NCBI GenBank assembly: GCA_024226935.1
Contig: JAAELK010000509.1
Coordinates: 62,001-126,000, forward strand
Source: Desulfobacteraceae bacterium
GTDB lineage: Bacteria > Desulfobacterota > Desulfobacteria > Desulfobacterales > Desulfobacteraceae
Reading direction: 5' to 3'
DNA length: 64,000 bases
Both the position numbers and the translations under genes were made by a program. The notes beneath the pieces are model-generated. The model ran no database searches and had not been told where the DNA came from. It worked only from the letters and a program-made list of their open reading frames with translations. Positions within the stretch are counted from its first letter, which is position 1; every line of letters begins with the position of its first letter. Positions 35,147 to 41,660 of the stretch are shown piece after piece.

Positions 35147-35232
35147 ACGCTACGTACAAAAATGATTATTATGAAAAACGCAATTTTAATTGATATAATT
35201 TGTTTTATGATTAGAAATAGGAGAGAATGACA

Positions 35233-38200
35233 ATGAATTTTAAAAAAACCGGATCTGTAGTGGTGATTGGTGGCGGTATCTCCGGCATGCTTTCAGCTCT
35301 TGATCTCGCAAATTCCGGATTTTATGTTTATTTGGTGGAAAAAGGCCCTTCAATCGGCGGCGTGATGTCCCAGCTGGACAAGACTTTTCCGACAAATGAC
35401 TGCGCAATGTGAATTATCTCACCTACACTGGTCGAGGTCGGCCGGCATTTAAACATCGAACTTTTAACCCTTTCTGAGGTTAAAAACGTCACAGGTGAAA
35501 AAGGTAATTTTCAAGTTGAAATCCTTAAAAAACCCCGGTATGTAAAAGAGGATTTATGCGTTGGCTGCGGGGTCTGCACTGAAAAGTGCCCCGGCAAATT
35601 TGAGGATCAATATAATGCTAATCTTGTCAAACGAACTGCCATTTATGTGGAGTATCCCCAGGCAGTTCCCCTCAAATACGGCATAAACCCCGAGGTCTGT
35701 CTAAAACTGACAAAAGACAAATGCGGGACCTGTGAAGAGGTCTGTCCTGCAAATGCCATTGATTACACCCAAACACAAGAAACAATCACTCTGGATGCCG
35801 GGGCTATTATTTTTTCCCCGGGCTTCAAGCCCTTTGATCCTTCTAAATTTGACAATTATCAATATGTCAATTATCCCAACGTGATCACCTCCATGGAATT
35901 TGAAAGAATTCTATCTGCATCTGGTCCCACCATGGGTCATGTCACCACCTTTCCAAAACTGCCCGCAAAACCCAAAAAGAAAAAAGATAAATTATTGGCC
36001 AAAAAACGGAAAAGTCCCAAAAGGATTGCCTGGTTTCAGTGCGTAGGCTCCAGGGATATGAACAAGTGTGACAATCCCTATTGTTCTTCTGTCTGCTGTA
36101 TGTATGCGGTGAAAGAGGCCGTTATAGCTAAAGAACACGCCGGTGGAGACTTGGATTGTTCTATCTTTTTCATGGATATGCGAACTCCCGGCAAAGAGTT
36201 TGAAAAATACTACCAGAACGCCAAAGACAAACACGGGATTAACTTTATCCGCTCAAAGGTCCATTCGGTAACAGAAGATCTGGACACCCATGACCTTCAA
36301 ATCAGGTATGTTGATGAGTTGGGACAAATTGTCACAGAAGTTTATGACATGATCGTTCTGTCAGTAGGCCTTGAGATAACACCTGAGACCAAAGAACTTG
36401 CCGATAAGCTTGGCATTGAAATGACCGCCAACGGCTTTTGTAAAACCGATTCCTTTGAACCGGTGGCAACTTCCAGGGATGGTATTTATGTATCCGGGGT
36501 ATTCAACAATCCCAAGGATATCCCGGAATCCGTTCTGGATGCCAGTGCTGCAGCATCTGCTGCCGGGGATGCCCTAAGTGAAGTACGGGACACCATGACA
36601 AAGCAGGTTGCAACAATCCCCGAAACCAATGTGGTGGGTGAAAGACCCAATATCGGTGTCTTTATCTGCGACTGCGGCTCCAATATCAAAGGAGTGGTGG
36701 ATTGTGCCCATGTTACCGAATACGCCAAAAGCCTTCCCTATGTCACCTTTGCCGATGAAAACATGTATGCCTGCAGCCAGGATGCCCAGGATAAAATGGT
36801 CGAGCAAATTAAAGAAAAAAAGCTCAACCGCATCGTGCTGGCTGCCTGTACCCCCAAGACCCATGAACCTTTGTTCCAGGAGACATTGAAAAATGCAGGG
36901 TTAAACAAATACCTGTTTGAAATGACCAATATAAGGAACCATAATTCCTGGGTTCATAAAAACAATCCGGAACTTGCCACTCAAAAGGCCAAAGATCTGG
37001 TCCGCATGGCTGTGGCCAAGGCCGCCCTTGCAGAACCCCTTAAAGAAGAAAAAATTGATGTAAACGCTTCTGTCATGGTAGTTGGAGGAGGCCTTGCCGG
37101 CTTAACGGCAGCAAAAAGCCTTGCCACACAAGGTTATGACACCCATATCATCGAGAAAAAAGACCAGCTTGGTGGAGAAGCATTAAAATTGTTTAAAACC
37201 GCCCAGGGCGAAGACGTGGGTGAAAAAGTAGCCGAGCTTATTGGTGCAATTGAAGCCAATGAAAAGATCACAGTTCACACCGATACCACCCTTGAAAAGG
37301 TGGAAGGATTTGTGGGCAATTTTAAATCTCTCCTTAAAACAGGAGATAAAACCTGCGAACTTGAACACGGGGTGGCTGTCCTTGCCACCGGGGCAAAATC
37401 TTCTGAACCAACCGAGTATGGATTTGGCCAGGATGACAGGATTATCACTGCCCTGGGCCTGGACAAACGACTCAAGGAAAATGACACCCAACTTGACGCA
37501 ATTAACTCAGCAGTTTTCATCCAATGCGTCGGATCAAGAGAGACTGATCGCCCCTATTGCTCCAGGGTCTGTTGTACCCATTCTGTTGACAATGCCATTT
37601 TATTGAAGACAAGAAAACCTTCCATGGACGTGTTTATCCTTTACAGAGATATTCGGACCTATGGTGAACGTGAGTTATTATACAAAGAAGCAAGAGAACT
37701 CGGGGTCATTTTTATCCGATACGAAGTTGATAAAAAACCTGTGGTAGTCATCGAAAAAGACAAGATTAAAATTTCATTGAATGACCATGTTTTGAACCAG
37801 CCCGTCACTCTGGAAACTGATCTTTTAACACTGGCGGCTGCCATTGTTCCCAGAAAAGATGAGAAACTTGCCAATTTCTTTAAAGTACCCTTAAATGACG
37901 AGGGATTTTTTATTGAAAAACACGCAAAATTAGGTCCTGCCGAATTTGCAACTGCCGGGGTCTTTGTGGCAGGGGCCGGTCACTATCCTAAACCTGTCAA
38001 TGAAGCAATTACCCAGGGAAGAGCTGCTGCCTCAAGGGCCGCAACCCTTCTTTCCAAAAAGGATAACCTGTTTACCAGTGGTACCATCGCCAATGTTAAT
38101 GTAGAAAAATGCAGCACCTGTGGTGTCTGCATATCCATTTGCCCCTATTCGGCACCACGATTTATAACCGAGGGACGTTTTGAAGGAAAAGCAGACATCA

Positions 38201-38325
38201 ACGCAGTTTTGTGTAAGGGTTGCGGACTTTGTGTGGCCTCCTGCCGTTCCGGTGCGCTGCATCTTAGAGGATTTGATACAAACCAGATTTTTTCACAAAT
38301 ATTTGCCCTGGGTGAAGTAGTCTAA
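35233..38325 (+). CDS. HdrA-like flavoprotein with two flavin domains, selenoprotein (UGA = Sec60)
   Basis: Iron-sulfur flavoprotein of the heterodisulfide reductase A family, 1030 residues when the in-frame TGA at 35410-35412 is read as selenocysteine. Without readthrough, gene callers give a 61-residue ORF and a truncated 892-residue ORF. In order: FAD-binding [18 protein letters not shown] (about 8-25); DCAM[15 protein letters not shown], where most HdrA have Cys that ligates the proximal [4Fe-4S]; ferredoxin clusters from Cys109 ([12 protein letters not shown]) and near 166; an HdrA N-terminal-like block ([17 protein letters not shown]); a second FAD site ([12 protein letters not shown], about 614); and a C-terminal 2x[4Fe-4S] ferredoxin from Cys960. 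The ATG at 35233 was chosen because AGGAGA lies 8 nt before it, too close to the ATG at 35227. It leads the flx cluster and probably carries the bifurcating flavin. Confidence 0.93.
35410..35440 (+). promoter_or_regulatory. Candidate SECIS hairpin in the hdrA-like gene
   Basis: Starting 9 nt after the TGA, ACCT (35421-35424) plus C35426 pairs with G35434 plus AGGT (35435-35438), leaving A35425 bulged and a 7-nt loop that contains GGTC. A short stem with a G-rich loop 15-25 nt after UGA is the bacterial SECIS form known from fdhF, where SelB recognises the loop. Folding here is by eye. Confidence 0.65.
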
Positions 38326-38341
38326 AGGAGATACTTATATA

Positions 38342-38764
38342 ATGGCTGATAACGATACAAAAATTGTAAGCTTTCTTTGTAACTGGTGCTCATACGGAGC
38401 AGCAGATCTTGCAGGAGTCAGCAGGATGGAGTACCCGGCAGATATCCGGGTTATCCGGATCCCGTGCACAGGCAGGATGAGTCCTAAATTTATTTTATCC
38501 GCTTTCAGGGAAGGTGCTGATGCAGTCTGGGTATCCGGCTGACATCCCGGCGAATGTCATTACCTGGATGGTAATTATTATGCACGCAGAAAATTTGCTT
38601 TAATGGGCAATCTCCTGGAACACATGGGAATTGAAAGAGATAGACTTCATTTTTCCTGGATCTCTTCGGCTGAAGCCACCAAGTTTGTGGATGTAGTCAA
38701 AGAGATTTCCGAGAAAGTGAGAGCGCTGGGCCCCAATAAAAAACTTGTAAAGGACTATAATTAA
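38342..38764 (+). CDS. MvhD/FlxD-type [2Fe-2S] electron-transfer subunit, selenoprotein (UGA = Sec67)
   Basis: Small iron-sulfur protein that passes electrons between a hydrogenase or flavin oxidoreductase and HdrA. Reading through the in-frame TGA at 38540-38542 gives 140 residues. Conserved cysteines lie in [15 protein letters not shown] and RIPCTGRM. The usual GGCHPGDCHY motif appears as SG-Sec-HPGECHY, so Sec replaces a conserved Cys. The sequence after the TGA stays in frame and matches the family to its end ([16 protein letters not shown]), which excludes a true stop. It sits 16 nt after hdrA and 13 nt before the next gene. Its ORF as usually called would be only 66 residues. Confidence 0.94.
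38540..38575 (+). promoter_or_regulatory. Candidate SECIS hairpin in the mvhD/flxD gene
   Basis: ATTACC (38559-38564) and GGTAAT (38570-38575) form a perfect 6-bp stem with the 5-nt loop TGGAT, whose centre is about 24 nt after the TGA. Distance, stem size and loop guanines fit bacterial SECIS elements. Confidence 0.7.
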
Positions 38765-38777
38765 AAAGGTTATTTTT

Positions 38778-39725
38778 ATGGATACCTGTATTAAAAAAAT
38801 CAGGGAGCTTTCTGCCGAGCTCCTTGAAAAAGGTGAAGTACAAAAAGTGATTGGGTTTGCCCAAGGAACCATTCCCATGGCAACCAGCCCCATTGCAATT
38901 GAGTCAAAACAAGATACCGAAAAACTTGTTTTTAATTCAACATGCGGACTGAACCTTGCTAATTATGCTTCCAAACAAAAAGGCAAAGTAGCAATCATTG
39001 CCAAGGGTTGTGATTCTCGAAATATTGTCACCCATATTGTCGAAAATCAAATCCAACGGGACCAGATTTATATTATCGGGGTTCCCTGCACCGGCATGGT
39101 GGACAAGTCTAAAATTGCAACTCTTTTTGAAGATGAAATCACGGGATTTACAGAAGACGGTAACACCCTGAGAGTCACATCATCTTCAAGGGAAGAGATC
39201 TTAAAAAAACAGGATTATTTAAGGGAAAATTGTCTTTATTGCACCCATAAGAATCCAATACTCTATGATGTTCTGGCGACAGAGCTTGTGGAAGAACAAA
39301 TGCTTGAAAAACCATTTCCCGACGTGGATAGGATTGAAGCCCTGGATACCGATGCCAAATGGCAGCATTTTGAAAATCTGACAAAAAATTGTATCCGGTG
39401 CTATGCCTGTAGAAATGCTTGTCCTCTGTGCTATTGTCCAACTTGTTTTGTGGACGAAGCCGGCCCCCAATGGGTAGGCAAAGGACAAAACAAAACAGAT
39501 GTGAATACCTTTCACTATTTAAGAGCCTTCCATTGCGCCGGACGGTGTACCGATTGTGGCGCCTGTGTTGAAGCCTGCCCCATGGGGATCAATGTCAGGG
39601 ATTTTACCCGAAAATTAAACAAAGATGCTTTGGAACTTTTTGGTTGGGAAGCCGGCCTTGACATCACCAAACGTCCTCCTCTGGATGCATATAGTCCGGA
39701 AGATCCTGATGATTTTATCAAGTAA
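38778..39725 (+). CDS. FlxC-like iron-sulfur subunit
   Basis: A 315-residue cytoplasmic ferredoxin-type protein. The N-terminal two-thirds (VIGFAQGTIPMATSPIAI, VAIIAKGCDSRNIVTHI, IIGVPCTGMVD) resembles the F420-hydrogenase/formate dehydrogenase beta family. The C-terminal part carries two cysteine clusters, CIRCYACRNACPLCYCPTC and CAGRCTDCGACVEACPMGI, for two [4Fe-4S] centres. By order and content it matches FlxC of the flavin oxidoreductase-Hdr systems described in Desulfovibrio. It probably links the NADH-oxidising FlxA/B pair to FlxD and HdrA. It carries no UGA. Confidence 0.82.
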   Translation: MDTCIKKIRELSAELLEKGEVQKVIGFAQGTIPMATSPIAIESKQDTEKLVFNSTCGLNLANYASKQKGKVAIIAKGCDSRNIVTHIVENQIQRDQIYIIGVPCTGMVDKSKIATLFEDEITGFTEDGNTLRVTSSSREEILKKQDYLRENCLYCTHKNPILYDVLATELVEEQMLEKPFPDVDRIEALDTDAKWQHFENLTKNCIRCYACRNACPLCYCPTCFVDEAGPQWVGKGQNKTDVNTFHYLRAFHCAGRCTDCGACVEACPMGINVRDFTRKLNKDALELFGWEAGLDITKRPPLDAYSPEDPDDFIK

Positions 39726-39741
39726 ATAAAAAGGGCATACA

Positions 39742-40794
39742 ATGAAATTCATAACAATTGATAAAAAGAACTGGACCAAAGGCATTGATAAATCCCGTGG
39801 GACCTATCGGCTTTTTGGCCCGGTTAAAGATAAAAACTGGTGCATGATCAAAGAGCTTGATGGGGATATTTTGCCCGATATGGAATACAACGAGTCTGTC
39901 ATGTCGGCAAAATCTGTTCTTTTCCCCCAGTCGGAAACCATTTTAAATACCAGCCTGAATGAATCGGTTGAAGACCACCATATCATGAAGCGGGCCAAAA
40001 ACGATTATACAGCCCGGGCGGTTTTGGGTATCAGGCCCTATGATGCAAAAGCCATACAGCTTGTAAAAATGAACTTTGATACCAAGGAATATAAAGACCC
40101 TTATTGGTGTGATGCCTACGAAGCCACAACTTTTGTTGGTATGGCCATTACCAAACCTGGCCCCTTTGATTTTTCTACTTCTGTAGATTCCGGCCCCTTT
40201 TGTGAAGAAGGGTTAGATATTCTTTTAGCAGATCTTGACGATAGCTTTATAGCAAAGATTCTCACCCCCAAGGGTGAAAGCTTTGCCGCTGCCTGCGGAT
40301 TTGACAGCACCATCGACGATAAGGAGAGCCAGGCATTATTTGATATTTTGAGAAAAGAAGCAGAAAAGAATATCAACTGCCGGGTGGAAACAGATAAGCT
40401 TAAGGAAAAAAATCTTCTGGACCTCCACGGAGCATCCTTCTGGGATGATCTGGCATTTTCCTGTATTAATTGCGGCACCTGTACCTATGTTTGCCCGACC
40501 TGCTGGTGTTTTGATATCCAGGATGAGGCTAAACTAAAGGAATCATCCAGATTCAGAAATTGGGACACCTGCATGTCTCCCTTGTTTACCCGGCATGCCA
40601 CAGGACACAATCCAAGGGGCGTCAAAGTTCAACGGGTCCGGCAACGGTTCATGCATAAACTCAAATATTTTCTTGATAAATATGACCAGGGAATTATGTG
40701 CGTCGGATGCGGCCGTTGTGTAAAAAGTTGTCCGGTTAACATCGACATCCGCGAGGTCTGCCATACCATGAACACTTATGAGAAAAAAGATTAG
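39742..40794 (+). CDS. FlxB-like iron-sulfur subunit (HydB / AsrA type)
   Basis: A 350-residue protein of the family that includes sulfhydrogenase beta and anaerobic sulfite reductase A subunits. An N-terminal domain of about 230 residues (GIRPYDAKAIQLVKMNFD) binds no obvious cofactor. The C-terminal part has two [4Fe-4S] motifs, CINCGTCTYVCPTCWC and CVGCGRCVKSCPVNIDI. In these systems it sits between the FAD/NAD subunit and the other ferredoxin subunits. It follows flxC by 16 nt and precedes flxA by 20 nt. Confidence 0.84.
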   Translation: MKFITIDKKNWTKGIDKSRGTYRLFGPVKDKNWCMIKELDGDILPDMEYNESVMSAKSVLFPQSETILNTSLNESVEDHHIMKRAKNDYTARAVLGIRPYDAKAIQLVKMNFDTKEYKDPYWCDAYEATTFVGMAITKPGPFDFSTSVDSGPFCEEGLDILLADLDDSFIAKILTPKGESFAAACGFDSTIDDKESQALFDILRKEAEKNINCRVETDKLKEKNLLDLHGASFWDDLAFSCINCGTCTYVCPTCWCFDIQDEAKLKESSRFRNWDTCMSPLFTRHATGHNPRGVKVQRVRQRFMHKLKYFLDKYDQGIMCVGCGRCVKSCPVNIDIREVCHTMNTYEKKD

Positions 40795-40814
40795 CGAACA
40801 AAGGAGCTAAATAC

Positions 40815-41660
40815 ATGGAAAACCCCTATATGCCATATCCAGTTCGCATTGACGATATTGAAATTGCAACTGAAGACAAATCCCTTAAGACATTTAAATT
40901 TGTCTTTCTCAATGAAGGGGATGAAGAAAAATTTGCTTATCATGCCGGCCAATTTGCAGAACTGTCCATTCCAGGTGTGGGCGAAATCCCAATTGGCATT
41001 GCCTCATCCCCGGTTGAAAAAGGATTTGTAAAATTTACAGTTTTCAAAACCGGGGTGGTAACTTCCCACCTTCACAACATGAAGGTCGGAGATATCATGG
41101 GACTGCGTGGCCCTTTGGGCAACTGGTATCCCTGGGACAAACTTGAAAACAAGAATGTGGTCATCATTGGTGGTGGATTTGCATTTACCACTCTGCGATC
41201 TTCCATCATCTATATGCTGGACCCTGCCAACCGATCCAAATTCAAAAATATTGATGTAGTCTACGGAGCCAGATCCCCAGGCATGCTGCTTTATCGCGAT
41301 GAGCTATTTGAATGGGAAAAACGAAATGACATCAACATGCATATTACCGTGGATAGCACCGATGATCCGTCTTGGAAATATCATACGGGCTTTGTTCCCC
41401 AGATAGTGGAACAAAACGCTCCCAAGGCCGACCAGGATACCTATGCCATCATTTGCGGTCCACCGATTATGATTAAATTCACCCAGCCCTCTTTGACCCA
41501 GTTGGGATATAAACCCCACCAGATTATCATGTCTTTAGAAAACAGGATGAAATGTGGAATAGGAATGTGCGGACGATGTAATATCGGAAAAGAACTGGTA
41601 TGCAAAGATGGACCGGTCTTTACTCTTGATGAAATTAATCAAACCCCGAAAGAGTATTGA
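40815..41660 (+). CDS. FlxA-like FAD/NAD(P)-binding oxidoreductase subunit
   Basis: A 281-residue ferredoxin-NADP reductase-type protein, similar to HydG of sulfhydrogenases and to dihydroorotate dehydrogenase electron-transfer subunits. It has the flavin-binding barrel (AGQFAELSIPGVGEIPIG), the NAD(P)-binding site (VVIIGGGFAFTTLRSSI) and a C-terminal [2Fe-2S] motif CGIGMCGRCNIGKELVC. It is the likely entry point for NADH electrons. It is the last gene of the hdrA-flxDCBA run; its stop is followed by small hairpins and the dsrC promoter. Confidence 0.87.
   Translation: MENPYMPYPVRIDDIEIATEDKSLKTFKFVFLNEGDEEKFAYHAGQFAELSIPGVGEIPIGIASSPVEKGFVKFTVFKTGVVTSHLHNMKVGDIMGLRGPLGNWYPWDKLENKNVVIIGGGFAFTTLRSSIIYMLDPANRSKFKNIDVVYGARSPGMLLYRDELFEWEKRNDINMHITVDSTDDPSWKYHTGFVPQIVEQNAPKADQDTYAIICGPPIMIKFTQPSLTQLGYKPHQIIMSLENRMKCGIGMCGRCNIGKELVCKDGPVFTLDEINQTPKEY

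Follow-up and report, generated by a model that had tools for sequence, protein, structure and literature searches.

A Probable Selenocysteine-Containing HdrA with a Conserved Coding-Region Hairpin as Its Likely SECIS in a Desulfobacteraceae Bacterium

Results

The window analyzed is a stretch of 64,000 nucleotides from a Desulfobacteraceae bacterium (assembly GCA_024226935.1, contig JAAELK010000509.1). Its forward strand includes a row of genes that starts with an hdrA-like gene interrupted by an in-frame TGA and continues with an mvhD-like gene that also contains a TGA. The features are the following.

35227..38325, + strand: hdrA-like gene, 1032 residues with predicted selenocysteine (Sec) at codon 62; two flavoprotein regions and ferredoxin domains
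35410..35412, + strand: putative Sec codon TGA at the second Cys of DCxxC; the TGA recurs in homologous loci
35428..35445, + strand: likely bacterial SECIS hairpin CTGGTCG-AGGT-CGGCCGG; 7 bp, loop 22 nt after the UGA, -9.1 kcal/mol
38342..38764, + strand: mvhD/flpD/vhuD-like gene, 140 residues with predicted Sec at codon 67; Pfam FlpD PF02662 at 180.3 bits; matches PDB 5odc chain D
38540..38542, + strand: second putative Sec codon TGA (VSG-U-HPGECH); TGA in 57 MvhD rows, Cys in 23
38559..38575, + strand: SECIS-like hairpin of mvhD, ATTACC-TGGAT-GGTAAT; 6 bp, loop UGGAU, 22 nt after the UGA
38778..39725, + strand: 4Fe-4S subunit of the same gene row with Fer4 domains; Flox/Flx-like by position only, presumed role
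39742..40794, + strand: 4Fe-4S subunit, weakly AsrA/sulfhydrogenase beta-like; Fer4_22, NF040829 at 121.4 bits against a cut-off of 690
40815..41660, + strand: FAD/NAD-binding subunit, AsrB/sulfhydrogenase gamma-like; NAD_binding_1, FAD_binding_6 and DHODB_Fe-S_bind, all NCBIfam matches below cut-off

The TGA at 35410-35412, codon 62, is the sole stop inside the frame 35227-38325, which is otherwise open over 1032 residues. Standard ORF calling divides it into two pieces, 35227-35412 (61 amino acids) and 35647-38325 (892 amino acids, GTG start), the short fragment and truncated gene that the first-pass annotation of this DNA had expected from automatic annotation. That annotation had also placed the TGA at the second Cys of an HdrA DCxxC motif, with HdrA homology on both sides and no frameshift, and the alignments agree with it on each point. 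Residues 10-112 align with residues 145-247 of PDB 5odc chain A without a gap across the TGA, and residue 62 falls on a Cys of the solved HdrA chains (Cys197 of 5odc chain A when positions are counted along the alignment). An in-frame UGA where homologues have Cys, which is a criterion for bacterial selenoproteins, is what the locus contains.

The FAD and Fe-S domains match solved HdrA chains (8rvu_a, E 8.3e-181; 5odc_A, E 4.4e-174), which supports the identity of the protein. The order of the matched parts differs from that in the archaeal chains. The region from residues 10-11 to 402-447 corresponds to their flavin and Fe-S body, residues from about 470 to 629 to their N-terminal part, and residues from about 891 to 1027 to their C-terminal part; a second flavoprotein region begins near residue 613. 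The best NCBIfam match was NF040770 (HdrA2) with 922 bits, below its cut-off of 1100 bits, and the cut-offs of the NCBIfam HdrA models NF041778 (708 against 1400 bits) and NF041891 (663.7 against 1300) were not reached either.

Matches to this HdrA at E 1e-250 or better were found in 137 of the 146 genomes of the order. Each of the best 44 rows, the window's own included, had one TGA listed, and the 42 that were fetched all carry it at residue 62. A total of 99 loci were then compared, 10 from the window's own genome and 89 from the order (29 best hits, 20 chosen for having no listed stop and 40 chosen for a listed TGA). Codon 62 is TGA in 71 of them and Cys in 26, with two misaligned; these numbers are not a frequency because the loci were partly picked by the presence or absence of TGA. 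A 180-residue query found matches at E 1e-40 in 207 of the 247 phylum genomes, and 69 loci of the phylum (29 best hits and 40 chosen for a listed TGA) gave 60 TGA and nine Cys, which is not a frequency either because the sample was partly picked by TGA. A sequencing slip as the source of the TGA is unlikely, given that 68 of the 71 TGA loci come from other genomes. One locus, L115, was rejected as a TGA row; its TGAs sit at the end and its codon-62 site is Cys. The TAG listed for another, L070, is located at the end of its frame.

The 131 rows with TGA at codon 62 (Sec rows) reduce to 125 distinct ones, since one place was duplicated (L280 is L288) and some of the phylum loci were already among those of the order. 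The entropy and hairpin counts kept 24 of the 26 Cys loci of the order, the two without the FPT motif being left out. In the 71 Sec rows of the order and own genome, codons +6 to +11 after the TGA read CTG GTC GAG GTC GGC CGG with one exception, and the GAG is present in 71 of 71; codons +4 and +12 of the same rows are variable. The synonymous entropy of codons +6 to +11 is 0 to 0.11 bits in these rows as opposed to 0.98 to 2.09 bits in the 24 Cys rows, where all six codons vary.

The invariant block coincides with the hairpin at 35428-35445. Its seven pairs are all formed in 118 of the 125 distinct Sec rows and in none of the 32 Cys rows, and the exact 18-mer is found in 109 and none, respectively. 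This difference is not a consequence of the encoded peptide: among rows with the identical peptide LVEVGR, all seven pairs form in 111 of the 113 Sec rows and in none of the 21 Cys rows, and with LVECGR in seven of nine Sec rows and 0 of six Cys rows. The LVEVGR-matched comparison shows cleanly that a SECIS is under selection within coding sequence. At the pair 35428-35445, T-A replaces C-G in two rows and T-G does so in six, and G-T occurs at another stem pair, pairing being kept in every case. Among the 60 phylum Sec rows, 44 have the same 18-mer, two the compensated T...A version, and two are otherwise changed and broken; 12 have Cys for the second Val, eight of which keep all seven pairs. 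At least one pair is broken in seven of the 125 Sec rows (L113, L273, L290, L299, L306, L308 and L317). In L317, a phylum Sec-HdrA, the 18-mer is unable to form the stem in register, and its SECIS may differ.

The bSECIS model (PMC13188914) describes a loop of 3-9 nt with a G in its first two bases, a stem of 4-16 bp, a spacing of 16-37 nt and an MFE of -7.5 or lower. The hairpin at 35428-35445 conforms to all four constraints, with a 4-nt loop (AGGU) that includes the G, a spacing of 22 nt and an MFE of -10.2. These rules are not specific: an MFE hairpin that follows them was found in 119 of the 125 Sec rows, in 14 of these in a different register, and also in nine of the 32 Cys rows. The folding energy is not outstanding with respect to shuffled sequences (z -1.20, with 27 of 200 shuffles folding as well), and a search of 35300-35600 against Rfam, with E up to 5, produced no match. 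On the strength of its conservation pattern, 35428-35445 is likely the SECIS. A hairpin a few bases upstream, 35421-35438, had been put forward in the first-pass annotation and did not hold up. It has -1.1 kcal/mol when forced, departs from the bSECIS rules (10-nt loop, no G in the first two bases, spacing 12 nt) and forms all four of its pairs in just 18 of the 125 distinct Sec rows. The hdrA SECIS is hence moved by a few bases from its first placement to what appears to be the right place.

Bacterial selenoproteins also presuppose a set of Sec genes, and selA, selB, selD and tRNA-Sec (selC), which the first-pass annotation had named as a check, were all found in the window's own assembly (6,087,995 bases in 590 contigs, completeness 95.23, contamination 3.84%). 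SelA was matched with 538.7 bits, SelB with 357.5 and SelD with 364.6, the latter two over their cut-offs. The tRNA-Sec scored 76.9 bits, where the gathering score is 47, and ARAGORN independently read tRNA-SeC(tca) of 98 bases. The model match alone is weaker than it looks, because five of 14 control genomes exceed the gathering score too. A point against is that the sel genes are located on other contigs than the window's, in an assembly of 590 contigs with 3.84% contamination. The selD gene (L358, contig C159) has one in-frame TGA listed within its frame. Three fdhA genes of the assembly (L281, L282 and L283; contigs C153, C161 and C505) have TGA at a conserved site, and two more HdrA-type proteins (L019, contig C544; L025, contig C253) have TGA at the same codon followed by the same 18 SECIS letters.

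Chain D of 5odc has a Cys at the site of MvhD codon 67. Synonymous change at codons +6 to +11 after this TGA is nearly absent among 56 distinct Sec rows, and 23 Cys rows vary there. The mvhD hairpin alone has -5.3 kcal/mol, weaker than the -7.5 of the bSECIS model; the 48 nt from the UGA fold with -9.3 kcal/mol and then hold two hairpins. In near relatives the HdrA and MvhD sites go together: 57 pairs are Sec/Sec, 20 Cys/Cys and one Sec/Cys (L019, own genome). This count excludes two misaligned HdrA loci and the 13 Sec and six Cys HdrA rows without an MvhD aligned at the site. The co-occurrence of Sec-HdrA and Sec-MvhD in the near relatives sampled suggests that the two Sec sites may share an electron path. 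A rule that Sec-HdrA is always accompanied by Sec-MvhD fails outside near orthologues, as the best MvhD within 6.5 kb downstream of the 119 listed exact-motif places is Sec in 28 and Cys in 28, with two unaligned and 61 absent or out of reach. In the window, the automatic splitting of hdrA is corrected and an adjacent second Sec gene, which the first-pass entry on hdrA does not mention, is added.

Discussion

The in-frame TGA at 35410-35412 is almost certainly a Sec codon, judging from the frame, the recurrence of the codon, the conservation of the hairpin against Cys controls, the Sec machinery and the gene row. The central claim of the first-pass annotation, an HdrA selenoprotein split by ORF calling, is therefore supported, with the Sec genes present and the TGA recurring in many genomes. 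The simplest competing idea would be that the TGA is a true stop, either in a pseudogene or in a split gene with separate N- and C-terminal products, and it agrees with the two ORFs that standard calling yields. This is highly improbable: the same codon is TGA in many genomes, the frame is conserved on both sides, and the synonymous freeze downstream accompanies TGA but not Cys. If near-cognate suppression or another code led to Cys or Trp at the TGA, this would suit the homologues that have Cys at this residue. Such read-through would not need a conserved hairpin, the genome has the full Sec gene set, and we regard this reading as extremely improbable.

It could also be proposed that the frozen 18-nt block is a binding site for a protein, a regulatory site or a shared recombination tract instead of a SECIS, since its letters are near-identical across genomes, some Bacillota-labelled assemblies included. 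Several observations make this very improbable. The exact block is confined to Sec rows in the comparison given above, its rare changes at two stem pairs maintain pairing, it shares the top rank in stability among the codings of its peptide, and the codons immediately outside it vary. Moreover, mvhD and fdhA also have a nearly frozen block after their TGA, in each case with other letters. With a Sec codon and a SECIS as the preferred reading, SelB carrying Sec-tRNA-Sec would bind the mRNA hairpin 35428-35445, and the UGA at codon 62 would be decoded as Sec in the cell to give a 1032-residue flavin and iron-sulfur protein in which Sec presumably has a redox role and, as the first-pass annotation suggested, may alter a [4Fe-4S] cluster next to the flavin; the alignment shows that the site corresponds to a Cys of solved HdrA chains.

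The genes that follow offer some indication of function. Because Fe-S and FAD/NAD genes come after mvhD, an NAD(P)H-linked HdrA complex, bifurcating or confurcating, is likely. Sec-HdrA, the adjacent Sec-MvhD and the Fe-S and FAD/NAD subunits would form a cytoplasmic complex in which flavin-based bifurcation or confurcation probably moves electrons among NAD(P)H, ferredoxin and an acceptor. We are confident in the overall reading of a bacterial Sec-HdrA in which the hairpin directs Sec at UGA 62 and which would act with Sec-MvhD and the Fe-S and FAD/NAD subunits. A comparable row, with HdrA and MvhD homology followed by Fe-S and FAD/NAD genes, is that of HdrA2 (NF040770) and the HdrABC-FloxABCD (FlxABCD) genes of Desulfovibrio (PMC4287179), for which NAD(P)H oxidation and transfer to HdrABC have been proposed (PMC4287179; Ramos 2015, cited in PMC5861303). 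The window differs from HdrABC-FlxABCD in that neither hdrB nor hdrC was found among the five proteins scanned at 35227-41660 and in that its HdrA remains below the NCBIfam cut-offs.

The kind of protein is not new. Sec in HdrA and FrhD of Deltaproteobacteria, encoded by clustered genes, has been in print since 2006 (PMC1794560), with further deltaproteobacterial cases in PMC2702500 and PMC5109826 and methanococcal ones in PMC11097638, in line with the first-pass annotation. The hosts named in the deltaproteobacterial reports include Syntrophobacter fumaroxidans, Desulfobacterium autotrophicum HRM2 (HdrA1 and HdrA2) and Desulfococcus multivorans (PMC1794560, PMC2702500, PMC5109826). CxxU is the motif given for HdrA in a review (PMC13188914), and hdrA of Methanocaldococcus is described as looking partial to gene callers due to its Sec codons (PMC12054007). 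The hdrA of the window is most likely a further case of this known kind. As in the window, deltaproteobacterial Sec-HdrA often has a Sec-FrhD/MvhD alongside, and in methanococci the HdrA and the VhuD of one operon both contain Sec (PMC11097638). The operon of PMC1794560 is hdrA-frhD-frhG-frhA with hydrogenase subunits, whereas Fe-S and FAD/NAD genes follow mvhD in the window. Archaeal SECIS elements lie mostly in the 3' UTR (PMC13188914), while the hairpin of the window is of the bacterial type, within the coding region.

The degree of the freeze deserves comment. LVEVGR has 4608 synonymous codings, 64 of which can form all seven pairs, 32 of them with the loop G (a G in the first two loop bases). 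The coding in the window ranks first in stability among those 32, followed by the compensated T...A version that occurs naturally. When all 4608 are ranked, the window's coding shares the top place, at -9.1 kcal/mol, with a GAA version that is without the loop G. Peptide, stem and loop G jointly go far to explain the freeze. Other genes make it less likely that the freeze is peculiar to HdrA: in the fdhA control, codons +6 to +9 hardly change synonymously (29 Sec rows of 30 loci, with entropies from 0 to 0.58 bits), and mvhD is nearly frozen too, both with other letters. We tentatively propose, while thinking it rather doubtful, that the coding-region SECIS of this family has been pushed to whichever synonymous coding of the peptide is the most stable with the loop G kept, resulting in about the same 18 letters across the phylum and in Bacillota-labelled assemblies. 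If this were true, the letters would be set by the peptide together with SelB, and not just by the loose hairpin that the standard model describes, and one could largely predict the SECIS of each family from its peptide. No report of such a letter-level optimum was found in a limited search of open-licence papers.

A pattern scan located the element with TGA in register at no fewer than 119 places in at least 116 database stretches, and all those listed are HdrA with the TGA at residue 62. These matches do not gauge invariance, because the pattern itself fixes the element; the entropy and row counts do. Among the stretches listed with the element, most are named Desulfobacterales, Desulfobacteraceae or Deltaproteobacteria. 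Desulfospira joergensenii DSM 10085 (L174 and L230) is among the carriers of the element. Six of the at least 116 stretches with the exact hdrA element bear Bacillota names (L135, L155, L184, L197, L202 and L241), for which a binning error is possible; we take Dethiobacter, Thermincola and Peptococcaceae to belong to the Bacillota. An exact hdrA element of the bacterial type was also seen, again with a possible binning error, at 4730-4764 of L138, a contig labelled Candidatus Bathyarchaeota.
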